Shown piece by piece: positions 51,799 through 64,000 of a DNA stretch of 64,000 bases; within the stretch, counting starts at the first letter, position 1, and each line of letters opens with the position of its first letter. Below the pieces are notes generated by a model. That model was not told the DNA's origin and made no database searches. It worked only from the letters and a program-made list of their open reading frames with translations. The stretch spans positions 930,001 to 994,000 of the forward strand of contig NZ_CP128361.1 in the NCBI RefSeq assembly GCF_030345075.1, given 5' to 3'. The stretch is from Solwaraspora sp. WMMA2065 (GTDB taxonomy: Bacteria; Actinomycetota; Actinomycetes; Mycobacteriales; Micromonosporaceae). The position numbers were made by a program, and so were the translations under genes.

Positions 51799-51966
51799 TT
51801 CGTCGTATGTGGTCCGTCCACCGTGTCCGTCCGATCTAGCGACCGCACAGCCGTTCAGGTTCGTTGTGAGACGGGCTTAACGCGTTGGAAATCGATGGGT
51901 CGAGATTCGTGAAACCCGGCGTACCTACGTTTCGTGGCACCACGACTTCGGCTGAAGGGGAGTTGG

Positions 51967-53193
51967 ATGCCACGACGCTTCCGGGGCGGCCTCGCCGCAC
52001 TCTGTATACTGTCGACATTGGTTGCCGCGACCGCCTGTGCGGAGGACCCCACGTCCTCGGCCGGTGGCGGCGGTGACTCCGACACCATCAAGGTCGGTAT
52101 CCTGCACTCGCTGAGCGGCACCATGGCGATCAGTGAGGTCACCGTACGCGACGCAGAGTTGCTCGCGATCGAGGAGATCAACGCCGCCGGTGGCGTGCTG
52201 GGCAAGCAGATCGAACCCGTCGTCGAGGACGGTGCCTCGGACTGGCCCACCTTCGCCGAGAAGGCGCAGAAGCTCATATCCCAGGACAAGGTCGCCACCG
52301 TCTTCGGTGGCTGGACGTCGGCCAGCCGCAAGGCGATGCTGCCGGTCTTCGAGCGCAACAAGGCGCTGTTGTGGTACCCGGTGCAGTACGAAGGGCTGGA
52401 GAGCTCGGAGTACATCTTCTACACCGGTGCCACCACCAACCAGCAGATCGTCCCGGCCCTGGACTACCTCGCCGAGCAGGGGCACAAGACGGTCTTCCTG
52501 GTCGGCAGCGACTACGTCTTCCCGCGTACCGCTAACAAGATCATCACCGCGTACGCCGAGGCCAACGGCATGCAGATCGTCGGCGAGGAGTACACGCCGC
52601 TGGGCCACACCGAGTACAGCACCGTGGTCAACAAGCTGCAGCAGGCCCAGCCCGACGCGGTGTTCAACACCCTCAACGGCGACAGCAACGTCGCCTTCTT
52701 CAAGCAGTTGACCAGCGTCGGAGTCACCGCCGAGACGATGCCGACCGTGTCGGTCAGCGTCGCCGAGGAGGAGGTCGTCGGCATCGGCCCGGACAACGTC
52801 GCCGGCCACCTGGTGGCCTGGAACTACTACCAGACCACCGAAGGCGAGCGGAACACCGCCTTCGTCGAGGCCTTCAAGGCCGAGTACGGGGCGGAGAAGG
52901 TCACCTCCGACCCGATGGAGGCCGGCTACAACGCGGTCTACCTGTGGGCGGCGGCGGTCGAAGCGGCCGGCAGCACCGACGTCGAGGCGGTCAAGGAGGC
53001 CGCCGGCGGGATCAGCATCGAGGCACCGGAGGGCACGGTCACCATCGACGGCGACAACCAGCACGTCTACAAGACGGCCCGGATCGGCGTGGTGCAGCCC
53101 GACGGCCAGATCCAGGAGGTGTGGAACTCCGGCGAACCGATCAAGCCGGACCCGTACCTGACCGGCTACGACTGGGCCGAAGGCCTGTCGTAA
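51967..53193 (+). CDS. urtA: Urea ABC transporter substrate-binding lipoprotein UrtA
   Basis: 408 residues. The signal peptide ends LVAATAC, a lipoprotein cleavage site. The mature part is a periplasmic-binding fold of the branched-chain amino acid type with the UrtA marks [50 protein letters not shown] and [14 protein letters not shown] 51967 follows AAGGGGAG. The 160 bases before it hold a weak GAAAC/GTTTC inverted pair (51911-51915, 51929-51933) and no clear GlnR box. First gene of urtABCDE. Confidence 0.93.
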
Positions 53194-53226
53194 CAGGCTA
53201 GTAACAAGCGGAGGGAGGTGCCCGCC

Positions 53227-54102
53227 ATGGCGGTACTCAACCAACTGGTCATCGGCGCGAGCATCGGAGCGGTGCTGCTCCTGATCGCGCTGGGACTGAC
53301 GTTCACCTTCGGACAGATGGGCGTCATCAACATGGCCCACGGGGAGTTCATCCTGGCGGGCGCCTACACCGCGTACATGATGCAGGGGCTGGTCGGGGCG
53401 CAGGCCGTCCCGGCCGCCCTGCCGGTCGCGTTCCTCATCGCCGGCACCATGGGTCTGATCCTGGAACGCCTGGTGATCCGGCGGTTCTACGGCCGGCCGC
53501 TGGACACCCTGCTGCTCACCTTCGGCGTCAGCCTGATCCTGCAGCAACTGGCCCGGGACATCTTCGGCGCGCCCAACGTGCAGGTCACCGCACCCGGCTG
53601 GCTCACCGGCGGGCTTGACGTGGCCGGCGTACAGCTGCCGTACAACCGGATCTTCATCATGGCACTCGCGGTCGGCTGCGTGGTGGCGATCTCGCTCTAC
53701 CTCAGCAAACTGTCGTACGGCCGGCGGATGCGGGCGGTGATGCAGAACCGCGAGCTGGCCGCGGTGACCGGGGTGGCCACCCAGCGGGTCGACCAGCTCA
53801 CCTTCTTCATCGGCTCCGGCCTGGCCGGTGTCGCCGGGGTGGCGCTGACCCTGATCGGCCCGGTCGGGCCGTCGCTGGGCACCTACTACATCGTGGACGC
53901 GTTCCTCGTCGTCGTCGCCGGGGGACTCGGACAGCTGCGCGGGGCGGTGATCGCGGCGGTCGCCCTCGGCGCGATCAACAGCTTCGTCGAATTCTGGACC
54001 GATGCGAGCCTGGCCAAGGTGGTGGTCTTCGCAGTGATCGTGGCCTTCCTCCAGTTCCGTCCGCAGGGCATGTTCGTCCTCCGTTCCCGGGCGCTGACAT
54101 GA
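53227..54102 (+). CDS. urtB: Urea ABC transporter permease UrtB
   Basis: 291 residues with about eight membrane helices, LivH type. FTFGQMGVINMAHGEFILAGAYTAY is the family signature, and VAGGLGQLRGAVIAA is the coupling region. ATG 53227 is chosen because GAGGGAGG (53211-53218) is eight bases upstream. The GTG at 53218 lies inside that site. The stop overlaps urtC (ATGA). Confidence 0.93.
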   Translation: MAVLNQLVIGASIGAVLLLIALGLTFTFGQMGVINMAHGEFILAGAYTAYMMQGLVGAQAVPAALPVAFLIAGTMGLILERLVIRRFYGRPLDTLLLTFGVSLILQQLARDIFGAPNVQVTAPGWLTGGLDVAGVQLPYNRIFIMALAVGCVVAISLYLSKLSYGRRMRAVMQNRELAAVTGVATQRVDQLTFFIGSGLAGVAGVALTLIGPVGPSLGTYYIVDAFLVVVAGGLGQLRGAVIAAVALGAINSFVEFWTDASLAKVVVFAVIVAFLQFRPQGMFVLRSRALT

Positions 54103-55190
54103 ACGCCGCCCGGACGACCACCCCCGCCAACGGGGCCCGGCCGGCCACCCGCTGGCCCGGACCGGTCGGTTTCGTCGCCGTCGGAGTGCTGCTGCTGGTG
54201 GCACCGCTGGTGCTCAGCCCGTTCCGGCTCGACCTGCTCGCCAAGTACCTCTGCTACGCGATCGTCGCGGTCGGCATCTACCTGGCCTGGGGGCGCGGCG
54301 GCATGCTGACCCTCGGCCAGGGCGTGTTCTTCGGCCTCGGCGGCTACGCGATGGGCATGCACCTCAAACTCGCCGACGCCGGCGAGGGCAACCTGCCCGA
54401 CTTCATGGTGTGGAGCGGGGTGGAGACCCTACCGGCCATCTGGGGGCCGTTCCGCAGCCCGGCGTTCGCCCTGGTCATGGTGGTCGTGCTGCCCACCGTG
54501 GTGGCGCTGATCCTGGGCACCCTGGTGTTTCGCCAACGGGTGCGCGGTGCCTACTTCGCCGTACTGTCCCAGGCCCTGGCCGCCGCGTTCGTGATCCTGC
54601 TGGTCGGCCAGCAGGGCCTCACCGGCGGCACCAACGGCCTGACCAACGTGCAGTTCTTCTTCGGCCTCGACCTGTACGACCCGACGCAGAAACGGATCGT
54701 CTACTACGTCGCGGTCGGCGCGCTCGCCCTGGTCTTCCTCGCCGCCTGGCAGCTCACCCACAGCCGGTTCGGCAAGCTGCTGGTCGCCATCCGCGACGGT
54801 GAGGACCGGGTCCGCTTCCTCGGCTACGACCCGGCCGTGGTGAAGACCATCGTGTACGCGCTGTCGGCGGCCATGGCCGGGATCGCCGGCGCGCTGTTCG
54901 TGCCGGTGGTCGGCATCCTCGGCCCGGCCGACCTCGGCGTCGTACCGTCCATCGAGATGCTGGTCGCGGTCGCCATCGGCGGGCGGTTCTCGCTGGTCGG
55001 TGCGGTCGGCGGGGCGATCCTGTTCAACTACGGCAGTACGGTGCTCAGCGAACAGTGGCCGTCCGGCTGGCTCTACCTGCTCGGCGGCCTGTTCATCGCG
55101 GTGATGATGTGGGCGCCGCGCGGCCTCGCCGGGCTGCTCGCCGACGGCTGGGCGGCGGTGCGGCACCGGGTCGGGGGTGCGAAACCATGA
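54099..55190 (+). CDS. urtC: Urea ABC transporter permease UrtC
   Basis: 363 residues, LivM type. Helices include VAVGVLLLVAPLVLSPF and CYAIVAVGIYLAWGRGGMLTLGQG (signature). The coupling motif is VAIGGRFSLVGAVGGAIL. UrtC-specific features are the long loop after the third helix (LADAGEGNLPDFMVWSGVE) and GQQGLTGGTNGLTN. It is coupled to urtB and urtD by ATGA overlaps. Confidence 0.93.
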   Translation: MNAARTTTPANGARPATRWPGPVGFVAVGVLLLVAPLVLSPFRLDLLAKYLCYAIVAVGIYLAWGRGGMLTLGQGVFFGLGGYAMGMHLKLADAGEGNLPDFMVWSGVETLPAIWGPFRSPAFALVMVVVLPTVVALILGTLVFRQRVRGAYFAVLSQALAAAFVILLVGQQGLTGGTNGLTNVQFFFGLDLYDPTQKRIVYYVAVGALALVFLAAWQLTHSRFGKLLVAIRDGEDRVRFLGYDPAVVKTIVYALSAAMAGIAGALFVPVVGILGPADLGVVPSIEMLVAVAIGGRFSLVGAVGGAILFNYGSTVLSEQWPSGWLYLLGGLFIAVMMWAPRGLAGLLADGWAAVRHRVGGAKP

Positions 55191-56008
55191 GCGGCAAGCT
55201 GGAGGTACGCGGCCTCGACGTCGTCTTCGACGGCTTCCGGGCGATCAGCGGCCTCGACCTGACCGTCGAGCCGGGGGAGCTGCGCTTCCTGATCGGCCCC
55301 AACGGTGCCGGCAAGACCACCCTGATCGACGTGGTCACCGGCCGGACCCGGCCGGCGTCCGGCTCGGTGCGGTTCAACGGCCAGGAGCTGGTCGGCCGCC
55401 GTGAGCACCGGATCGTCCGGCTCGGCATCGGCCGGACCTTCCAGACGTCGGTGGTGTTCGAGCAACTCACCGTGCTGGAGAACCTCGACCTGGCGGCCAG
55501 CTTCCGCCGGCGGATGGTCGGCCTGCTGCGCCGCCGGCGCGGTGTCTCCGACCAGGTATCCCGGGCGCTGGACACCACCGGTCTTGCCGACCTGGCGTAC
55601 CGGCCGGCCGGGGTGCTCTCCCACGGGCAGCGGCAGTGGCTCGAGATCGGCATGCTGATCGTGCAGCAGCCCAGTCTGCTGCTGCTCGACGAGCCGGTGG
55701 CCGGGATGAGCCGCAGCGAGCGGGACCGCACCGGTGAGCTGCTGCGCGAGGTCGCCAAGGACCACACGGTGATGGTGATCGAACACGACATGGAGTTCCT
55801 GCGCCGGTTCGCCAGCACCGTCACCGTGCTGCACGAGGGCCGACTGCTCTGCGAGGGCACCGTTGCTCAGGTGCAGGCCGACCCGCGCGTGCAGCAGGTC
55901 TACCTGGGGCGCTCCGGTGAGGAGGGTGCCGAACCCGCCGTACCGTCGGCTGTTTCCGTCCCGTCGACCGCTGCCGGACCGTCAGCCGCTGAGGAGGCGT
56001 CGTCGTGA
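55187..56008 (+). CDS. urtD: Urea ABC transporter ATPase UrtD
   Basis: 273 residues. Walker A GPNGAGKTTL, signature LSHGQRQWLEIGM (the UrtD form), Walker B LLLLDEPVAGMS, and the H-loop in VIEHDM. A non-conserved Ala/Pro/Ser tail of about 25 residues follows. It is coupled by overlaps to urtC and urtE. Confidence 0.94.
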   Translation: MSGKLEVRGLDVVFDGFRAISGLDLTVEPGELRFLIGPNGAGKTTLIDVVTGRTRPASGSVRFNGQELVGRREHRIVRLGIGRTFQTSVVFEQLTVLENLDLAASFRRRMVGLLRRRRGVSDQVSRALDTTGLADLAYRPAGVLSHGQRQWLEIGMLIVQQPSLLLLDEPVAGMSRSERDRTGELLREVAKDHTVMVIEHDMEFLRRFASTVTVLHEGRLLCEGTVAQVQADPRVQQVYLGRSGEEGAEPAVPSAVSVPSTAAGPSAAEEASS

Positions 56009-56706
56009 GTGCCATGTTGACCGTCGAGTCGCTCGACGTCGCGTACGGCCGGGCCCAGGTGCTGTTCGGGGTCGACCTGCAGGCCCCGGCCGGGTCGCTG
56101 GTCTGCGTGATGGGCCGCAACGGGGTCGGCAAGACCACCCTGCTGAAGGCGATCACCGGGGTGCTGCCGGTGCGGTCCGGCCGGGTGACCTTCGACGGCC
56201 GCGACATCACCAGGCTGCGTACCCACGAACGGGTGCGGCTCGGGCTCGGCTACGTCCCGCAGGGCCACGAGACGTTCCCACAGCTGACCGTCGCCGAGAA
56301 CCTGCAGGTGGCGGTCGAGGCGGCCCGGACCGACAAGGTCGCGGTCGACGAGGCGCTGGACCTGTTCCCGGCGCTGCGCGGGCTGCTGCGCCGCCGGGCC
56401 GGGTTCCTCTCCGGTGGCCAGCAGCAGCAGTTGGCGATCGCCCGTGCCCTGGTCACCCGGCCGAAGATGCTGCTGCTCGACGAACCGACCGAAGGCATCC
56501 AGCCGTCGATCATCATCGAGATCGAGGAGGCGATCGAACGGCTGCACACCGAGGCCGGGCTGGCGATCCTACTGGTCGAGCAGTACCTCGAACTGGCGCT
56601 GCGGCTGGCCGACCGGTTCGTCATCCTCGACGCCGGCGAGGTGGTCCGGGCCGGCGACAAGGCGGACCTGCGCGACGAGTCGGTCCGCCAACTGCTGTCG
56701 GTGTGA
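56005..56706 (+). CDS. urtE: Urea ABC transporter ATPase UrtE
   Basis: 233 residues. Walker A GRNGVGKTTLL, signature LSGGQQQQLAIARAL, Walker B LLLDEPTEGIQPSII. This fits UrtE over LivF because of the EGIQPSII sequence. With UrtD it powers urea import. Last gene of the operon. No urease genes are in the window. Confidence 0.94.
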   Translation: MSAMLTVESLDVAYGRAQVLFGVDLQAPAGSLVCVMGRNGVGKTTLLKAITGVLPVRSGRVTFDGRDITRLRTHERVRLGLGYVPQGHETFPQLTVAENLQVAVEAARTDKVAVDEALDLFPALRGLLRRRAGFLSGGQQQQLAIARALVTRPKMLLLDEPTEGIQPSIIIEIEEAIERLHTEAGLAILLVEQYLELALRLADRFVILDAGEVVRAGDKADLRDESVRQLLSV

Positions 56707-56737
56707 CCCGGCCGGCACCGGTCGGCCGGACCTGTCG

Positions 56738-57271
56738 TCAGCTGGTCGGTGGCAGCTCGAACAGCAGGCAGGACGAGGTGGCGTGGGCGGTCAGCCGGCC
56801 GGCGGCGTCGGTCAGCTTCGCCTCGGCGTACGCGGTGCGCCGACCGCGCTGCACCACGGTGCCCTCGCAGCGCAGCGTGCCCGAGGCGAGCGTCACCGGG
56901 CGCAGGAACTTCACGTTCAGGTCGATCGAGGTGTAGCTCGTCCCGGCCGGCAGCACCGAGTGCACCGCGCAGCCGGCCGCGGTGTCCAGCAACGTCGAGA
57001 TGATGCCACCGTGCACCGTGCCCAGGGCGTTGTAGTGGAACTCCTGCGGGGTCAGCACGGTGACCACCCGGCCGTGCTCGGGCTCCAAGCCTTCGAGGCC
57101 CAGCATCACCATCACCGGCGGGGCGGGAATCTCACCGGAGGCCATCGCCTGCAGTTGGCCCAGCCCGTCGAGGCCGTTCAACGCCGCCAACCGCACCGTG
57201 GCGGGGTCGGTCCACGAGAAGGTGCGGCTGCGCTGCGCCGCGTCCGGCGCCGGCTGCTGAGTCTGTGTCAT
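56738..57271 (-). CDS. PaaI-family thioesterase (hotdog fold)
   Basis: 177 residues. The hotdog helix HYNALGTVHGGIISTLLDTAAGCAV carries the catalytic-type HGG motif, and the strands SIDLNVKFLRPVTLASG complete the fold. It hydrolyses acyl-CoA by family. The substrate is unknown. ATG 57271 is preceded on the minus strand by TTGACA, an 18-base spacer and CAGGCT six bases before the ATG, so it is leaderless with a very good promoter. It is divergent from the HxlR gene and under the same palindrome. Confidence 0.85.
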   Translation of the reverse strand: MTQTQQPAPDAAQRSRTFSWTDPATVRLAALNGLDGLGQLQAMASGEIPAPPVMVMLGLEGLEPEHGRVVTVLTPQEFHYNALGTVHGGIISTLLDTAAGCAVHSVLPAGTSYTSIDLNVKFLRPVTLASGTLRCEGTVVQRGRRTAYAEAKLTDAAGRLTAHATSSCLLFELPPTS

Positions 57272-57293
57272 GGACGCAGCCTGGCAGTCGGTT

Positions 57294-57318
57294 GCTAGGT
57301 CTGTCAACAAGACCTAGC
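57294..57318. promoter_or_regulatory. Palindromic operator between thioesterase and HxlR genes
   Basis: Arms GCTAGGTCT (57294-57302) and AGACCTAGC (57310-57318) are perfect, with a 7-base centre that contains the -35 TTGACA of the minus-strand promoter. The right arm merges with TAGCCT (57315-57320), the -10 of hxlR. A bound HxlR dimer would cover both promoters (inference). Confidence 0.7.
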
Positions 57319-57327
57319 CTGGTCGGG

Positions 57328-57810
57328 GTGAGACCTACCGCGCTCGACTGGTCCATCGACAACTGCACCATCGCCCGCACCATGGAGATCATCGGCGAGC
57401 GGTGGACCGTCGTCGTGCTCCGCGAGGTCTTCAACGGCGTACGCCGGTTCGACCAGATGCGCGAGCGCACCGGCGTGCCCCGCCAGGTGCTGACCAACCG
57501 GCTCACCATGCTGGTCGACCAGGGCCTGCTGCGCCGGCACCCGTACCAGGAACCGGGGGAGCGGCAACGCTACGAGTACCGGCTCACCGGTAAGGGCCTC
57601 GACCTGTGGCCGGTGCTGGTCGCCCTGCTGCAGTGGGGCGACCGGTACTGCGTCGACCCGGACGGCTCCCCGCTCGCCGTCGCGCACCGCGACTGCGGGG
57701 CCGAGGTCGGCGTCACGATGCGCTGCGCCGCCGGCCACGACGTCGCCGACACCCGCGACGTACTTCCCCGCCCCGGCCCCGGTGCCCGCCGCCGCGAACC
57801 GACCGGCTGA
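57328..57810 (+). CDS. HxlR-family transcriptional regulator
   Basis: 160 residues. Winged helix-turn-helix of the HxlR/MarR-like group: NCTIARTMEIIGERWTVVVLREVFNGVRRFDQM, then PRQVLTNRLTMLVDQGLLRR. The N-terminal Cys in DNCTIA is conserved in many HxlR proteins, some of which sense electrophiles. A C-terminal extension of about 45 residues holds three more cysteines (HRDCGAEVGVTMRCAAGH). GTG 57328 lies seven bases after its -10 (leaderless). It probably regulates itself and the thioesterase. Confidence 0.88.
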   Translation: MRPTALDWSIDNCTIARTMEIIGERWTVVVLREVFNGVRRFDQMRERTGVPRQVLTNRLTMLVDQGLLRRHPYQEPGERQRYEYRLTGKGLDLWPVLVALLQWGDRYCVDPDGSPLAVAHRDCGAEVGVTMRCAAGHDVADTRDVLPRPGPGARRREPTG

Positions 57811-57827
57811 AGTCCTACGCTGCGGGC

Positions 57828-58220
57828 GTGCACATTTCGCTCACCGCCATCGTCGTCGACGACTACGACCCGGCCATCGACTTCTTCACCACCGTCCTCG
57901 GCTTCGATCTGGTCGAGGACTCCCCGTCGCCGACCAACGACGGTCGCCCCAAGCGGTGGGTGGTGGTGCGGCCGCCCGGTGCCGAGACCGGCATCCTGCT
58001 GGCCCGCGCCGACGGCGACGCCCAGCGGGCGGCGGTTGGCAACCAGACGGCCGGTCGGGTCGGCTTCTTCCTCCGGGTGGACGACTTCGAGGCCGCGTAC
58101 CAGCGGATGGTGGACCACGATGTGCGGTTCGTAACCGCGCCGCGCACCGAACCGTACGGCCGGGTGGTGGTCTTCGTCGACATCGCCGGCAACCGGTGGG
58201 ACCTGATCGGCCCTGCCTGA
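57828..58220 (+). CDS. VOC-family (glyoxalase/bleomycin-resistance fold) protein
   Basis: 130 residues, one VOC domain with paired beta-alpha-beta-beta-beta units: SLTAIVVDDYDPAIDFFTTVLGFDL and GRVGFFLRVDDFEAAYQRMVDHDVRFV, ending VVFVDIAGNRWDLIGP. The metal-ligand Glu of glyoxalase I at the end is Asp-Leu here, so the activity is unknown. GTG 57828 follows TACGCT by six bases, so it is leaderless despite sitting right after hxlR. Confidence 0.85.
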   Translation: MHISLTAIVVDDYDPAIDFFTTVLGFDLVEDSPSPTNDGRPKRWVVVRPPGAETGILLARADGDAQRAAVGNQTAGRVGFFLRVDDFEAAYQRMVDHDVRFVTAPRTEPYGRVVVFVDIAGNRWDLIGPA

Positions 58221-58239
58221 GCCCGAGCCGTCGAACCCG

Positions 58240-58255
58240 GCCGACGTCAGTCGGC
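58240..58255. terminator. Small hairpin between converging genes
   Basis: GCCGAC-GTCA-GTCGGC, six perfect pairs with a 4-base loop. It lies between the VOC gene and the end of the guanidine transporter operon. A weak terminator candidate. Confidence 0.4.
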
Positions 58256-58263
58256 GGTCACCG

Positions 58264-59124
58264 TCAGCCGCCGGACCCGGTGGCGGCGTGCCGCTGGTGG
58301 TAGGCGCGGACCCGGTCCTCCACCTCGGCCCGCAGCGTCAGGAACTCCGGCAGCCGTTTCACGGCCAGGTCCCGGGGCACGCCGTCGCGGTCCGGCGGCA
58401 GCTGCACCGGCAGGTCGGCGGCGACCCGGCCCGGGTCGCTGGCCAGCACCACCACCCGTTGGCCGAGGAAGACCGCCTCCTCGACGTCGTGGGTCACCAT
58501 CACCACCGTGGTGCCGGTGTCGGCCCACACCCGGCGGACCAACAACTGCATGTCCTCCTTGGTCTGCACATCGAGGGCACCGAACGGCTCGTCGAGCAGC
58601 AGCACTCGCGGTTCGCAGGCCAGCGCCCGGGCGATCGCCACCCGCTGACGCTGCCCGCCGGAGAGCTGCTTCGGCAGCGCGTGCCGCAGCCCGGTCAACC
58701 CGGTCTCGGCCAGGTACCAGGCGACCCGCCGGGCCCGTTCGGCCCGACTGACCGGCAGCAGCTCCAGCCCGAACGCGACGTTGCGTTCCACCGTCCGCCA
58801 CGGATACACGGCACCGCTCTGCAGCACCAGCCCCCGGTCCGGACCCGGCCCGGTGACCGGCGCACCGTCGAGCAGCACGGTGCCCCGGCTCGGCGTGGAC
58901 AGCCCGGCGATCAGCGACAGCAGGGTGGACTTGCCCGACCCGGATGCGCCGACCAGGCAGACGAACTCGCCTCGGCGTACCGCCAGATCCACGCCGTCGA
59001 GCGCGCGCAGCGACCCGCCCCCGGCGGTCCGGAAGTCCTTGCCGACGCCGTCGAGCCGCACCAGCGGTGCGTCGGCGGCCGGCACCGCGCCCGCGTCTGT
59101 GCCGGCGGCTTCGGTCGCGGTCAT
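58264..59124 (-). CDS. ABC transporter ATPase of the putative guanidine importer
   Basis: 286 residues of the nitrate/taurine/sulfonate (NrtC/SsuB) subfamily. Walker A GASGSGKSTLL, Q-loop LQSGAVYPWRTV, signature LSGGQRQRVAIARAL, Walker B LLLDEPFGALD, H-loop MVTHDVEEAV. ATG 59124 overlaps the permease stop (ATGA), so a longer GTG reading is not used. Transporters of this subfamily often lie behind guanidine-I riboswitches and have been tied to guanidine or guanidine-derivative import. Here the riboswitch is at the head of the same operon. Confidence 0.88.
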   Translation of the reverse strand: MTATEAAGTDAGAVPAADAPLVRLDGVGKDFRTAGGGSLRALDGVDLAVRRGEFVCLVGASGSGKSTLLSLIAGLSTPSRGTVLLDGAPVTGPGPDRGLVLQSGAVYPWRTVERNVAFGLELLPVSRAERARRVAWYLAETGLTGLRHALPKQLSGGQRQRVAIARALACEPRVLLLDEPFGALDVQTKEDMQLLVRRVWADTGTTVVMVTHDVEEAVFLGQRVVVLASDPGRVAADLPVQLPPDRDGVPRDLAVKRLPEFLTLRAEVEDRVRAYHQRHAATGSGG

Positions 59125-60032
59125 ACCGCCCACCTCCCGACCCGGTCGCGGGTGGTCCGCAACGCCAGATCGATCGCCACCCCGATCAGGGCGATCACGA
59201 TCAGTACGGCGAAGATGTTGTCGAGCTGGTTGAACCGCTGCGACCGGACGATCCGGTAGCCCAGCCCGGACTGGGCGTTGATCAGCTCGGCGACCACTAC
59301 GAAGTTCCAGGCGGCCGCCGCGTTCACCCGGATAGAGTCGATCATGCCGGGCAGCGAATGCGGCACGATCACCTTGCGCAGCACCTCGAACCGTCGGGCA
59401 CCGAGGGTGTACGACACGTCGATCAGCCCGGCCGGCACGGTCCGAACAACGTTGGCGGTCATCAGCGTGTTGAAGAAGACCGTCGCGATGAAGATCAACG
59501 CCACCTTGGACGGCTCACCCAACCCCAACCAGATGATCAGCAACGGGATGAACGCGCTGGCCGGCAGGTAGCGCAGCAGGCCGATCATCGGTTCCAACGC
59601 CGCCCGGCCGGCCTGGAAGCTGCCCATCAGCAGGCCGAGCGGCACCGACACCGCCACCGCCAGGCCGAAACCGCGCAACACCCGGCCGACGGTCGCGGCG
59701 GTGTCGGTCCACAGTTGACCTGTCCGGGCCATCTCCACCCCGGCCGCCACCGACTCCAGCGGCGACGGCAGGAAGTCCGGCCGCCCGTCGACCAGCACGC
59801 TGCCGATCTGCCAGGCGGCCAGCGGCACCACGATCGAGGCGACCGTCAACGTCCACCGGCCGGCCGCCGGGATCGGCGTACGGATGGCCAGCAGCGCCGG
59901 CACCGGGCGGGCCGGACGCCGCCGCGGCAGCGGCCCCCACGACGCCCGGTCCGCGTCCGCATCGCTGGTCGCGGTCCCGTGGGTGTCGTCCGGGCCGCCG
60001 TTCGCGGTCGCCTGGGCCGGGGCGACGGTCAC
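59121..60032 (-). CDS. ABC transporter permease of the putative guanidine importer
   Basis: 303 residues, about six membrane helices, SsuC/TauC type. A long hydrophilic N terminus of about 60 residues is followed by WTLTVASIVVPLAAWQIGSVL. The coupling loop is VSYTLGARRFEVLRKVIVPHSLPGMIDSIRVNAAAAWNFVVVAEL. It overlaps the genes on both sides by 4 bases, so all three transporter genes are co-translated. The substrate is inferred from the operon. Confidence 0.88.
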   Translation of the reverse strand: MTVAPAQATANGGPDDTHGTATSDADADRASWGPLPRRRPARPVPALLAIRTPIPAAGRWTLTVASIVVPLAAWQIGSVLVDGRPDFLPSPLESVAAGVEMARTGQLWTDTAATVGRVLRGFGLAVAVSVPLGLLMGSFQAGRAALEPMIGLLRYLPASAFIPLLIIWLGLGEPSKVALIFIATVFFNTLMTANVVRTVPAGLIDVSYTLGARRFEVLRKVIVPHSLPGMIDSIRVNAAAAWNFVVVAELINAQSGLGYRIVRSQRFNQLDNIFAVLIVIALIGVAIDLALRTTRDRVGRWAV

Positions 60033-61066
60033 GGCGACACCGCCCCCACGAACTGTCCGTCGAGCAGCCCGTCCAGCGGCGGTGCCTCGTCGACCAGACC
60101 GGTCTCCACCAGGAACTCGGCGATCGAGCGGGCCTGGAAGTCCAGGTTGGCCGGGGTGTCGCCCGGCTCGAACGCCGCCTGGTTGTCGGCCAGGTCGAAG
60201 ATCGTCGTCCCGGCGTCGTACGTGCGGTAGTCCTCGACGCTGACCCCGGCCTGCGCCGCCATGATCTCGACCGCCTCGTCCGGGTTGTCGGCGATCCAGT
60301 CCAGGGTGTCGAACCAGGTGTCCACCACCGCCTGGACCTGCTCCGGATGGTCGGCCACGAACTCCGAGTCGAACACCAGATGGTCCGGGATCGCCCCGGG
60401 GAAGTCCGCCGATGTGACGATCGCGGTGCTGCCCTCGCGGCCCAGCGCGGTCGTGGTGAACGGGGCGAACGCCCCGACCGCGTCGACCTGCCCGGCCAGG
60501 AACGCGGCGGCGGCCGCGTCGGTCAGCAACGGACTGATCTCGACGTCGTCGGCGCTCAGCCTGGCCTCGGCCAACGCCAACAACAGCAGGTAGTGGTCGA
60601 CCGTACCCTCCTCGATCGCGATCCGCTTACCGGCCAGGTCGGCCACCGAGTCGATCCCCGGCGCGGCGATGATCTGGTCGTTGCCGGTCGAGTTGTCGTT
60701 GACCAGCACCACGGTCTGCGCCGCGCCGCCGCTGACCGACGACAGCGTGTCGTTGAGGGTCTGGCTGTTGGCGTCCAGGTTGCCGGTGGCCAGCGCGGTC
60801 AGGCTGTCGGTGTAACTGTCGAAGTAGGTCAACTCGACGTCGACCCCGTTCTCCTCGAACAGACCCTGTTCCTCGGCGACCTGCCAGGGGAACCAGCCCG
60901 GCCAGGCGCTGAACCCCAGCCGTACGGTGGTCGAGCCGTCGCCGTCGTCGGCGGAACCGTCATCACCGCCGCAGCCGGCGGCGCTCACCAGCAGCGTCGT
61001 CGCGCAGGCGGCGGCGATCAGCCTCCGGGTGGTGGAACGGCGGGAAAATTTGGGGGTACGTCGCAT
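60029..61066 (-). CDS. ABC transporter substrate-binding lipoprotein of the putative guanidine importer
   Basis: 345 residues. The signal peptide ends in the lipobox LVSAAGC. The mature part is an NMT1/SsuA-type binding protein: VRLGFSAWPGWFPWQVAEEQGLFEENGVDVEL, GNLDANSQTLNDTL, and IAIEEGTVDHYLLLLALAEA. A twin-arginine-like or simple basic start (RRTPKFSRRSTTRR) precedes the hydrophobic core. The gene begins 52 bases after the hydrolase gene. Alternatives (nitrate, taurine, thiamin precursor) cannot be excluded by sequence alone, but the upstream riboswitch favours guanidine. Confidence 0.88.
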   Translation of the reverse strand: MRRTPKFSRRSTTRRLIAAACATTLLVSAAGCGGDDGSADDGDGSTTVRLGFSAWPGWFPWQVAEEQGLFEENGVDVELTYFDSYTDSLTALATGNLDANSQTLNDTLSSVSGGAAQTVVLVNDNSTGNDQIIAAPGIDSVADLAGKRIAIEEGTVDHYLLLLALAEARLSADDVEISPLLTDAAAAAFLAGQVDAVGAFAPFTTTALGREGSTAIVTSADFPGAIPDHLVFDSEFVADHPEQVQAVVDTWFDTLDWIADNPDEAVEIMAAQAGVSVEDYRTYDAGTTIFDLADNQAAFEPGDTPANLDFQARSIAEFLVETGLVDEAPPLDGLLDGQFVGAVSP

Positions 61067-61118
61067 CTCTATGTCCTCCTGCGGAAGGGAAACTACGGGG
61101 GATCGGCGCCGCGTCGGC

Positions 61119-62300
61119 TCAGCGCTCAGTGGCTCGATGGCGCGGCAGGTGCCCGGCGCGGACCAGACAGCCGAGGGTGTCGCAGATGACCCGGGTGGCG
61201 ATCAGCGAGGTGATCTCGGCGTTGTCGTACGGCGGCGAGCACTCCACCACCTCGATGCCCGCCAACGGCCGTTCGGCGATCAGCTGGATGAACTTGAGGA
61301 CTTCGCGGGGCAGGAAGCCGCCCGGTTCGGGCCAGCCGGTGCCGGGCACGAACGCGGCGTCCAGGCAGTCCACGTCGAACGACAGCCAGACCGCCTCGGC
61401 GCCGTCCCAGGCGACTTCGAGGGCCTTCTCGGCGGCGGCCTCGATGCCCATCTCGACGCAGTCGGTGACCGTCATGATCGTGGTGCCGCGTTCCCGGCCG
61501 ACCTTGACCCCGGGGCGGGGCGCCTGCCAGCCGCCGATGCCGATCTGCACCAGGTTCTTCGGCGGCACGTTCGGGATGTCGGTGGCGTGGAACCACGGGG
61601 TGGTGTGCATCCGCTCGTCGAGGTCGGTCTCCTGGGTGTCGACGTGCCGGTCGAAGTGGATGATGCCCAGGTTGCCGTCGAGGTGTTCGGCGACCCCGCG
61701 CACCGTCGGGTAGCCGATCGAGTGGTCCCCGCCGAGCACCACCGGGAAGGCCCCGGAGGAGTAGACGTGGCTGACCGCCTTGGAGATCTGGTCGAAGGTC
61801 TTCTCGATGTTCGCCGGGATGGTGAAGACGTCACCGAGGTCGGCGATCGTGATCGACTCGCGCAGGTCGACGCCGAGTTCGAACGAGTACGGCCCGTACA
61901 GCGCGGAGATCTTGCGGATACCCTGCGGCCCGAACCGGGTTCCCGAGCGGTACGTCGTGCCACCGTCGAACGGCGCGCCGAGCACCGCCACGTCGTACTC
62001 GCCGCAGCGGCGCACGTCCTCGACGTACGGTGCCTTCAGGAAGGTGTTGATCCCGGCGAAGTGCGGCAGCTCGCCACGGGAGAACGTCGGGATCCGCTTG
62101 TCGACGATCGAATCGGCACCGGGCAGGCCGTACTCCAGGCCCCGGGCGATCTCCTCTTCCCACTTGGTGGTGGGCAGTTCGGCCTCGCGGGCGACCGCGT
62201 ACGCTGCCTCCGGGCCGTAGTTGCCGTGCAGCTCGGGTTGGTCGCTGGGCTGCTGGTCGCGGTGCTGGTGATAGTGGTGATGATGGTGGTGCAAGCCCAC
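61119..62300 (-). CDS. gdmH: Agmatinase-family enzyme, probable nickel guanidine hydrolase
   Basis: 393 residues, ureohydrolase fold. Metal ligands are in VVLGGDHSIGYPT, HFDRHVDTQE (agmatinases usually have DAH, not DRH) and SFDVDCLDAAFVPGTGWPEPGG. The Trp in GTGWPEPGG, the length (about 390) and the roughly 100-residue N-terminal region differ from classical agmatinase and fit the cyanobacterial guanidine hydrolase type, which splits guanidine to urea and ammonia. The N terminus is MGLHHHHHHYHQHRD, a natural metal-binding run. GTG 62300 follows GGAGG by seven bases. The gene lies directly behind a guanidine-I riboswitch and ahead of an importer. Confidence 0.82.
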   Translation of the reverse strand: MGLHHHHHHYHQHRDQQPSDQPELHGNYGPEAAYAVAREAELPTTKWEEEIARGLEYGLPGADSIVDKRIPTFSRGELPHFAGINTFLKAPYVEDVRRCGEYDVAVLGAPFDGGTTYRSGTRFGPQGIRKISALYGPYSFELGVDLRESITIADLGDVFTIPANIEKTFDQISKAVSHVYSSGAFPVVLGGDHSIGYPTVRGVAEHLDGNLGIIHFDRHVDTQETDLDERMHTTPWFHATDIPNVPPKNLVQIGIGGWQAPRPGVKVGRERGTTIMTVTDCVEMGIEAAAEKALEVAWDGAEAVWLSFDVDCLDAAFVPGTGWPEPGGFLPREVLKFIQLIAERPLAGIEVVECSPPYDNAEITSLIATRVICDTLGCLVRAGHLPRHRATER

Positions 62301-62321
62301 GGGGCACCTCCGAATGAGGGC

Positions 62322-62340
62322 CTGGCTGAGGCACAGCCAG
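62322..62340 (-). promoter_or_regulatory. Expression-platform hairpin between riboswitch and ribosome site
   Basis: Perfect 7-base arms CTGGCTG and CAGCCAG with loop TGCCT, placed between the conserved 3' end of the riboswitch and the GGAGG ribosome site. It may be part of the switch output (inference). Confidence 0.45.
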
Positions 62341-62349
62341 ACATCCGGC

Positions 62350-62482
62350 TGCCTCCCGGGCTTTTGTCCCGCCGTGGAACGCCGCCCGCCACGCTGGCGG
62401 CCCGACGCCTGCACCTCTCGGACCTGTCCCGTCCCCGGCTGCCCGTGCCTGGCTGCCCGGCGGCGGCGGAACCCTAGGTGCG
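62350..62482 (-). ncRNA. Guanidine-I (ykkC) riboswitch
   Basis: Read on the minus strand, the conserved blocks occur in the right order: CTAGGGTTCCG near 62477, GGTCCGAGAG (62424-62415), then ACGGCGGGACAAAA and GCCCGGGAGG ending near 62351. The P1 helix can be drawn: GCACCT (62481-62476) pairs exactly with AGGTGC (62416-62411), and a CCGCC/GGCGG hairpin is inserted before the last block. These match the guanidine-I aptamer, which turns on guanidine export, import or breakdown genes when guanidinium binds. It is the leader of the hydrolase/importer operon. Confidence 0.93.
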
Positions 62483-62530
62483 CCTCACCGTTGGTGAGTC
62501 ACCCCGGAGTAGACGCCGCTGTGGTTTCGG

Positions 62531-63478
62531 TCACTTTGCCGACCCGTTGCCGTCGGGTATCGGCTGCGCCCGGGCGGCCAGGTCGGACCAGACCCGCTCG
62601 TACGCAACGACGTGCGCCGGCTGGTCGAGGTGCATCGTCCCGGTCAGGGTGTCGAGCCGGACCAGCCCCGACCCGGCCGGCCGCCGTCCGGGGACCGTCG
62701 TGGCGGCGGCGAAGCGCAGCAGGGTGAACGGGTTGGTCATGCCGGCGTGCGCGCCGCCGGACAGCGGCAGGACCCGTACCGAGATCCCCGGCCTGATCGC
62801 GAGCGCCCGCAGGTGGTCGAGTTGCGCCCGCGCCGTCGCGTCGTTGCCGACGGTACGCCGCAGCGCCCCCTCGCCGACGATCGCCTGCACCGCCGGCGGA
62901 TGCGGGTGGGTCAGCAGGTGCCGCTGCCGCGCCGCCAGCTGGTCGAGGCGGGCGGCGATGTCGTCGTCGCTGCGCAGACCGGCCGGGCAGCGCAGCAGCG
63001 CCTCGGCGTACCCCGGGGTCTGCAGCAGGTCCGGCAGCGTCGCCTGGCCGTAGCAGCGGATGAGCGTCGCGGACTGTTCGAACACCGGGTACGGGTCGGC
63101 GTCGATCGGCAGTCCGGCCAGCCCGTCGTGCCACCAGCGCCCGCCGCTGGGGCGGTCGATCTCCGCCGCGAGGGCGAGCAGCCGTTCCCGGGTCTCGTCG
63201 TCGGCCCGGTACAGCCGGCACATCGCTGACATGTCCGCTTCGGTCCAGCGCACCCGCGGGTCGCCGGCCTCGATTCGCCAGAGCGTGCTGTTGCCGCGTC
63301 GCAGCTTGTCGGCGGCGACGTCCTGGGACAGCCCGGCCTCGTACCGCAACGCCGCCAGGCACCGTCCCACCTGCCGCCGCAGCAGGGCCGTCCCGCCGGC
63401 CTGCGCGTTGATGCCCGCCGTCCGGGCAGCTCTCCCGTTGTACGTCTTCGCCCGTCGGCCGTCACCCCTGCCAGTCAT
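62531..63478 (-). CDS. XRE-family regulator with DUF5753 domain
   Basis: 315 residues. The helix-turn-helix is near residues 35-85 (LRYEAGLSQDVAADKLRRGNSTLWRIEAGD). The DUF5753 sensory domain follows (DADPYPVFEQSATLIRCYGQATLPDLLQTPGYAEAL, ATARAQLDHLRALAIRPGISVRVLPL). Such regulators usually pair with a DUF397 gene. Here the partner is instead the divergent AlpA-like gene, with a dyad between them. The first 30 residues are basic and not conserved, so a later start is possible. Target unknown. Confidence 0.85.
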   Translation of the reverse strand: MTGRGDGRRAKTYNGRAARTAGINAQAGGTALLRRQVGRCLAALRYEAGLSQDVAADKLRRGNSTLWRIEAGDPRVRWTEADMSAMCRLYRADDETRERLLALAAEIDRPSGGRWWHDGLAGLPIDADPYPVFEQSATLIRCYGQATLPDLLQTPGYAEALLRCPAGLRSDDDIAARLDQLAARQRHLLTHPHPPAVQAIVGEGALRRTVGNDATARAQLDHLRALAIRPGISVRVLPLSGGAHAGMTNPFTLLRFAAATTVPGRRPAGSGLVRLDTLTGTMHLDQPAHVVAYERVWSDLAARAQPIPDGNGSAK

Positions 63479-63500
63479 ACCCGATAGCGTGAAGCATTAG

Positions 63501-63527
63501 TTGCTCAAAGGCAATGCCTTAGGGCAA
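63501..63527. promoter_or_regulatory. 27-bp dyad between XRE and AlpA-like genes
   Basis: TTGCTCAAAGGCA and TGCCTTAGGGCAA around a central A; 11 of 13 positions pair. It lies 23 bases before the XRE start and 19 before the AlpA-like start, so it can control both. Confidence 0.6.
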
Positions 63528-63545
63528 CTCCTTAGCGTCTGTTGA

Positions 63546-63743
63546 GTGGACCTGGTCGGCACCTCGGAGTTGCGCGCGATGCTGGGTACGCCCGAGAAGC
63601 CGGTGAGCAAGCAGCGGGCGTACGTGGTCAGCCGGTCCAAGGGATTTCCCGATCCGGTAGCGCGGCTGGCGCAAGGCCCGGTGTGGTTGAAGGCCGATGT
63701 CGAGCGGTGGATTCAGGAGAACCGGCCGCCCCGGGTCAGCTGA
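63546..63743 (+). CDS. AlpA/excisionase-like small DNA-binding protein
   Basis: 65 residues from GTG 63546. It has the AlpA/HTH_17 outline: LVGTSELRAMLG at the first helix pair, SKQRAYVVSRSKGFPDPVARLAQGPVWLKADVERWIQEN with the typical final W-x3-DVERW. Proteins of this kind act as excisionases or small regulators. No integrase is next to it in the window. It is divergent from the XRE gene. Confidence 0.7.
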   Translation: MDLVGTSELRAMLGTPEKPVSKQRAYVVSRSKGFPDPVARLAQGPVWLKADVERWIQENRPPRVS

Positions 63744-63826
63744 GCCGCGTACCGTCGTGATCCCGCGGTGGCCATAATGTGGGAAGCTGCTCCCGAATTG
63801 CGAGACAGCCGGTCTATCGTCGGAGC

Positions 63827-64000
63827 ATGTCAGCTGTATACACGCACGGTCATCACGAGTCGGTGCTGCGCTCCCACCGCTGGCGTACCGCCGAGAACTC
63901 GGCCGCGTACCTGCTGCCGCACCTGCGGCCCGGCCAGGCGTTGCTCGACATCGGCGCCGGTCCCGGCACCATCACCATGGACCTCGCCGCGCTCGTCGCT
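63827..64000 (+). CDS. SAM-dependent methyltransferase (partial, runs off the window)
   Basis: The first 58 residues are present. HRWRTAENSAAYLLPHLRPGQALLDIGAGPGTITMDLA contains motif I of class I methyltransferases (DIGAGPGT). It resembles the UbiE/Menaquinone-type methyltransferases found in actinobacteria. TATCGT (63815-63820) ends six bases before ATG 63827, so it is probably leaderless. The rest lies beyond the window. Confidence 0.8.
   Translation, partial: MSAVYTHGHHESVLRSHRWRTAENSAAYLLPHLRPGQALLDIGAGPGTITMDLAALVA

Follow-up and report, generated by a model that had tools for sequence, protein, structure and literature searches.

A predicted guanidine-utilisation operon in Solwaraspora sp. 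WMMA2065, with a low-scoring guanidine-I riboswitch and linked urea import and urease genes

Does Solwaraspora sp. WMMA2065, an actinobacterium of the Micromonosporaceae, carry an operon that senses, imports and breaks down guanidine, and would it use this compound as a nitrogen source or mainly detoxify it? The question is raised by a minus-strand locus (58264-62488) in a 64,000-nucleotide stretch of its genome (the window; contig NZ_CP128361.1, positions 930,001 to 994,000). An earlier note, made from the letters alone, had read there a guanidine-I aptamer followed on the same strand by an agmatinase-family gene and three coupled ATP-binding cassette (ABC) importer genes. All of these were found, with fitting coordinates (Table 1). 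The locus is very probably a guanidine-utilisation operon composed of a riboswitch, a GdmH-type enzyme and an ABC importer, as far as can be judged from sequence. Its 5′ to 3′ order is aptamer, ureohydrolase, substrate-binding protein (SBP), permease and ATPase. The enzyme and SBP genes are 52 bases apart, the SBP and permease genes overlap by 4 bases and the permease and ATPase genes by 13, a spacing that fits a single operon. The start of the enzyme gene was placed at the GTG at 62300 instead of the longest-frame start at 62414, owing to its distance from an upstream GGAGG (our own reading).

Table 1. Features of the guanidine locus and of the nearby urea importer, in window positions
Feature	Positions	Strand	Basis or remark
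Guanidine-I riboswitch aptamer (RF00442)	62351..62488	-	cmscan; P1 GCACC/GGTGC; 3′ block GGGACAAAAGCCCGGGAG
Putative expression platform	62298..62355	-	40 aligned leaders
Stem A	62355-62347 with 62338-62328	-	would use the last GAG of the aptamer
Stem B	62340-62334 with 62328-62322	-	CTGGCTG/CAGCCAG; shares bases with stem A
Stem C (anti-Shine-Dalgarno)	62322-62316 with 62310-62303	-	covers the Shine-Dalgarno sequence
Shine-Dalgarno sequence GGAGG; start codon GTG	62311-62307; 62300	-	own reading
Guanidine hydrolase (guanidinase, GdmH-type ureohydrolase), predicted, 393 aa	61119..62300	-	PDB matches, 10 key residues, tree
His-rich N-terminal enzyme segment MGLHHHHHHYHQH	62262..62300	-	sequence; His runs in six congeners
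Lipoprotein-like SBP of ABC importer, SsuA/NMT1 type	60029..61066	-	profile matches
ABC importer permease, BPD_transp_1, SaoP/TauC/SsuC-like	59121..60032	-	profile matches
ABC importer ATPase, taurine/nitrate type	58264..59133	-	profile matches
urtABCDE, complete urea ABC importer	51934..56706	+	all five subunits above NCBIfam curated cut-offs

The closest PDB match of the enzyme is 9fek (723 bits, 83% identity, 305 of 369 aligned columns identical), followed by 7esr/7oi1 (576 bits, 67%, 242 of 360 columns) and, at a distance, by proclavaminate amidinohydrolase with only 189 bits. We take 9fek to be the Nitrospira inopinata guanidinase and 7esr that of Synechocystis (Sll1077), although the PDB table labels them “putative/probable agmatinase 2”; both chains agree with the published residue numbering once it is shifted by two throughout (10 out of 10 for 9fek; Thr97 and Trp305 for 7esr). 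The PF00491 match scores 270 bits. All six metal ligands are present (His193, Asp217, His219, Asp221, Asp309, Asp311), together with the specificity residues Thr116, His232, Trp323 and Glu353, which in N. inopinata are T105, H222, W313 and E344 (PMC11410670). These ten positions are conserved in 109 of the 113 rows compared, a few of which are duplicates. The exceptions are two rows of a 58%-identical class with Thr for Trp, one shortened row and the 29%-identical paralogue from the same genome (L002), which has Ser and His where the enzyme has Thr and Trp. Assignment as a GdmH-type guanidine hydrolase is thus well supported by sequence comparison. In similarity and key residues, and in a small tree with the paralogue as its only distant outgroup, the enzyme groups with guanidinases and not with agmatinases. 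Two conditions that the earlier note had named as refuting were checked, the lack of a covariance-model hit and, with this small tree, a position among classical agmatinases, and neither was observed.

The aptamer matches RF00442 over its full length (model positions 1-107 of 107; 62488-62351 on the minus strand), with an E-value of 3.3e-7 in 401 bases and of 1.6e-7 in 201 bases under laxer filters. It is the sole match found at E ≤ 10 in the 6.74-Mb genome (E 1.3e-6), in a search that scored 150 of 188 first-look candidates. The covariance-model alignment contains the conserved blocks CTAGGGTTCCG, GGTCCGAGAG and CACGG..GGGAYAAAAGCCCGGGAG, the three blocks named in the earlier note. The P1 helix, then described as perfect, is so for five pairs (62481-62477 with 62415-62411), while the sixth pair of the model is a C/A mismatch.

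Recurrence of this arrangement was followed among relatives, taken as the best 80 of 436 from GTDB genomes. Together with the window they make 81 loci: 55 actinobacterial, 22 from comammox Nitrospira, two cyanobacterial, one from Chloroflexi and one from Entotheonella. Counting the window in, 30 of the 55 actinobacterial loci have the importer trio behind the enzyme gene on its strand, 35 have the full aptamer pattern at most 400 bases before the enzyme, and 24 have both, which excludes a chance association. These counts are lower bounds, given a strict pattern and the many contigs that break off close to the locus. The trio is found on the other side of the enzyme in the Chloroflexi and Entotheonella loci and in one actinobacterial locus (L048). 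Comammox loci have no importer trio (0/22); 18 of them have an APC match within view, and in 14 the aptamer pattern lies farther upstream. Among other actinobacterial loci, five of the 55 have distant APC-like genes and four have sodium-symporter-like genes. In L082, L039, L043 and L079 a sodium:solute-symporter-like gene stands beside the guanidinase gene, where others have the ABC importer, and in L082 it is inserted between aptamer pattern and enzyme; it is a candidate alternative guanidine importer. Within the family, 36 of 200 sampled genomes match the enzyme at E ≤ 1e-120, 29 of them at 89% identity or above (two matched in part) and seven only at 58-66%. All seven genomes of the genus have the enzyme.

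Two further gene groups, absent from the earlier note, bear on the fate of the product. The urtABCDE genes are convergent with the guanidine operon, with three small genes in between. A profile search located the urease alpha gene at genome position 1,016,037, on the same strand and ~24 kb upstream; frames for ureA, ureB, ureC, ureF and ureG are grouped there, 20-25 kb upstream, as recognised by reading, alpha being the one identified by model. Their linkage completes, on paper, a pathway from guanidine through urea to ammonia, and strengthens the proposal, already made in the earlier note, that guanidine would serve as a nitrogen source. Of the 55 actinobacterial loci, 13 show a urease alpha gene within view. 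Urease (E < 1e-20) is found in 29/29 family genomes with the close enzyme and in 101/171 of the others (Fisher p 1.2e-6, an optimistic value because the genomes are related).

The pathway that we infer from the presence, order, homology, catalytic residues and conservation of these genes, and from the linked urease and urea importer, includes the ligand, the direction of regulation, the transport substrate, the enzyme activity, the metal and the nitrogen-source use. Guanidinium would bind the leader aptamer and raise expression of the operon; the lipoprotein SBP, with the permease and ATPase, would import guanidine; the enzyme, using two metal ions that are most likely nickel, would hydrolyse it to urea and ammonia. 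Urease would then convert urea to two more molecules of ammonia, and UrtABCDE may recapture leaked or external urea.

An operon devoted mainly to detoxification instead of nitrogen supply would have precedents, as guanidine riboswitches often govern detoxification according to the review PMC12186494, and the genome does contain one SMR-family transporter gene at another place. The sole RF00442 match is not at that gene, in a genome in which guanidine-II, -III and -IV riboswitches were not searched, and the link to urea import and urease speaks for nitrogen use. We consider detoxification as the main role unlikely. Few residues set the substrate of a ureohydrolase, so the enzyme might instead act on another guanidino compound such as agmatine, guanidinobutyrate or methylguanidine, the riboswitch sensing guanidine as a by-product. 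The best NCBIfam model is indeed the agmatinase one, but with 215 bits against a cut-off of 302, and the enzyme stays below the cut-off of all five NCBIfam models that it matches. As the enzyme is also 83% identical to 9fek and keeps all four specificity residues, this alternative is very improbable. That the aptamer is a ykkC subtype-2 RNA for ppGpp or PRPP is hardly credible: the subtypes share a common fold and differ in few bases, subtype 2 having a pyrimidine in place of a marker adenosine (PMC6031431), but RF00442 is the only plausible family match, the gene context is that of guanidine, and block GGTCCGAGAG agrees fully with the guanidine-I consensus, which means that the marker adenosine is kept if it is located in this block, as we assign it.

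Several observations weigh against the guanidine-utilisation operon. The aptamer scores 45.9 bits, below the Rfam gathering score of 63, and holds long G+C-rich insertions. The urt and urease genes are not under this riboswitch, and urease is common in the family regardless of the enzyme (130 of 200 genomes, E < 1e-20). The SBP matches an aliphatic-sulfonate-binding family above its NCBIfam cut-off and is distant from every solved structure, the best being a taurine-binding protein at 51 bits; given these distant structures and the sulfonate-family match, the assignment of its ligand follows gene context. The SBP also has 137 bits, below cut-off, to TIGR03427 (“putative urea ABC SBP”). In favour of the operon, a similar trio occurs in the cyanobacterial locus L083, together with hypA/hypB, with 55% (SBP), 48% (permease) and 50% (ATPase) identity. 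As for the aptamer, its score is probably depressed by the G+C-rich insertions (bias 21.3 bits), and all six related-locus leaders scanned reach gathering: Catellatospora (64.8 bits), Dactylosporangium (69.2), Herbidospora (74.7) and Microtetraspora (67.8) among actinobacteria, and a comammox Nitrospira (92) and a cyanobacterium (64.9) outside them. The window aptamer is therefore read as a low-scoring RF00442 member. A scan of 52000-64000 at the gathering threshold gave no RF00442 match, and default annotation misses such a score. Labels would hide the rest of the locus too, as the earlier note had foreseen: the enzyme comes out best as an agmatinase, a misleading label since models of this type remain below cut-off, and the SBP as aliphatic-sulfonate-binding.

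Two more distant classes of the enzyme were excluded when the close form was counted. A 58-59%-identical ureohydrolase occurs in three family genomes; the two proteins checked (L118, L119) keep the metal ligands and the specificity Thr but have Thr in place of Trp, and this class perhaps acts on another small guanidino substrate, to judge from these residues. A 65-66%-identical guanidinase-like class that keeps Trp occurs in five family genomes (four rows from three genomes checked: L116, L117, L120, L121), and the L116 and L117 N-termini have no His run. Genome G058 carries both classes. Two loci, L072 and L115, have the guanidinase match divided over two reading frames, through either a sequencing slip or a broken gene. 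L072, L077 and L079 (split or shortened) were left out of the alignment and trees, and L115 out of the trees. In a quick tree of 112 rows the comammox rows are nested inside the actinobacterial ones. Transfer of the comammox enzyme from actinobacteria is not claimed, as an approximately unbiased (AU) test did not reject a tree in which a single branch sets all actinobacteria apart (p 0.626), this constrained tree having a higher likelihood than the unconstrained one; the test used a tree thinned to 80 rows, 10 of them comammox, from which the other classes and the 29% paralogue were left out.

Around the operon, a helix-turn-helix/DUF5753 regulator gene (62531-63478, minus strand; Sco1979-like, below cut-off) lies directly upstream of the riboswitch and is kept in the four congener stretches fetched (79-99% identity). 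Past the operon, the opposite strand of these four stretches (L122-L125) has ATPase-like matches, which suggests that the urt arrangement is kept in the genus.

How the riboswitch might act was examined in the leader between aptamer and start codon, where three predicted stems lie close to the Shine-Dalgarno (SD) sequence (Table 1). Forty leaders were aligned, drawn from 68 with a recognisable aptamer end after near-copies, long inserts and unclear starts had been removed by hand. Stem B is paired in 89.9% of cells, with 19 cells changed on both sides; its paired cells, both-side-changed cells and score are each above 500 of 500 shuffles, while it is unexceptional on pairs changed on both sides (170/500 shuffles) and pair types (61/500), so that three of the five measures show covariation. 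Stem A is 81.3% paired, with covariation not beyond shuffles in the same leaders. Stem C is 65.4% paired and has modest covariation that sliding controls come close to. Stems A and B are mutually exclusive and stems B and C share bases. This suggests a simple switch in which A and C form the off state and B the on state, but folding calculations give no clear support. When stem A is forbidden, SD unpairing goes from 0.25 to 0.21 in the window leader, meaning that the SD is not freed, and of the 40 leaders only 19 show a rise above 0.05. The translational switch as an established mechanism was accordingly dropped to a hypothesis. No U-tract terminator was seen in the window leader, whereas the cyanobacterial leader L081 has the terminator-like CTCCCGGGCTTTTT instead. 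Guanidine-I RNAs are shown to regulate transcription in the review (PMC12186494), and a translational example may already have been published.

A second question is how the enzyme would obtain nickel. The Synechocystis enzyme needs accessory nickel-delivery proteins (PMC12186494), and no HypA/HypB-type genes are found among the genes of the operon. A search of the entire genome for HypA (PF01155) gave nothing at E ≤ 0.001, and HypA was not found in any of the seven genus genomes or in 22 of the 29 family genomes with the close enzyme. Anti-correlation of HypA with the enzyme was considered and rejected, HypA being found in 7/29 genomes with the close form and 39/171 others (Fisher p 0.82); its presence is not needed alongside the enzyme. 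The HypB model TIGR00073 has only two matches in the genome, both below cut-off: one of 68 bits in the ureG stretch and a weak one of 21.6 bits at another position. Among the 81 loci HypA matches occur in two, both cyanobacterial, the baits being two cyanobacterial HypA proteins only. HypB baits touch seven of the 55 actinobacterial loci at 25-34% identity, six of which have urease alpha in view, as UreG would.

The enzyme N-terminus reads MGLHHHHHHYHQH, and six congeners keep the His run with varying length. In 52 actinobacterial rows, with starts chosen by script, His makes up 156 of the 750 residues that precede the conserved GPEA (20.8%), compared with 2.7% elsewhere in the protein, and 40 rows have a close His pair. 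The corresponding stretch has 23 His in 350 residues (6.6%) and no close pair in 22 comammox rows, and zero His in the two cyanobacterial rows. At least four His are found in only 10 of the 52 actinobacterial rows, which makes the long His tail a minority trait. Nickel chaperones are also missing near comammox guanidinase genes (PMC11410670), so that their absence alone is not new, and since comammox manage without a His tail the idea that a tail is required is weakened. The UreG frame (L088:217-1497, minus strand) has a His-rich stretch before its P-loop domain, as if it were also a nickel store. On sequence features, the His-rich N-terminus, UreG or both are likely stand-ins for nickel loading. 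The wider proposal joins two statements: that actinobacterial guanidinases are matured without HypA/HypB, a His tail or UreG supplying nickel, and that their guanidine-I switch is translational, the ribosome-binding site being masked or exposed by overlapping hairpins, whereas the switch of the review is transcriptional. We hold this pair of statements to be possible but doubtful. A search of open-licence literature found nothing that joins guanidine hydrolase with histidine-rich, and this operon is not described in the excerpts seen of open-licence papers on actinobacterial guanidinase.

Set beside known systems, the operon is less novel than the earlier note implied: the set of riboswitch, guanidinase and ABC importer is already published for Synechocystis (PMC12186494) and the guanidinase for comammox Nitrospira (PMC11410670). 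Synechocystis PCC 6803 shares the guanidine-I aptamer, a GdmH-type enzyme (67% identity), the ABC importer and the downstream use of urease (PMC12186494). The window differs in having no hypA/hypB-type genes in the operon, a His-rich enzyme N-terminus and, in comparison with L081, no visible terminator; the Synechocystis locus was represented here by L081 and L083. Comammox N. inopinata shares the aptamer, has the closest solved enzyme and is also reported to be without nearby nickel chaperones (PMC11410670), but comammox bacteria have an APC permease and no importer trio, with which PMC11410670 agrees, and their N-termini are not His-rich. The guanidine carboxylase operons of Raoultella and Klebsiella likewise combine a guanidine riboswitch with an ABC importer (PMC12186494). 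Their chemistry is different, and the Solwaraspora genome has no match above the cut-off of guanidine (urea) carboxylase TIGR02712; partial carboxylase-domain matches reach at best 519 of the 1304 bits needed. The operon is a known kind of system whose nickel loading may be unusual.

These findings extend to actinobacteria the guanidinase pathway that has been studied in comammox Nitrospira and a cyanobacterium; 29 of 200 sampled family genomes have the close form of the enzyme. As guanidine-I switches in G+C-rich DNA can drop below the Rfam cut-off, some such operons may be under-annotated. In the organism studied here guanidine breakdown would be placed beside urea uptake and near urease, and the system offers a clear case for asking how nickel reaches an enzyme in the absence of HypA.

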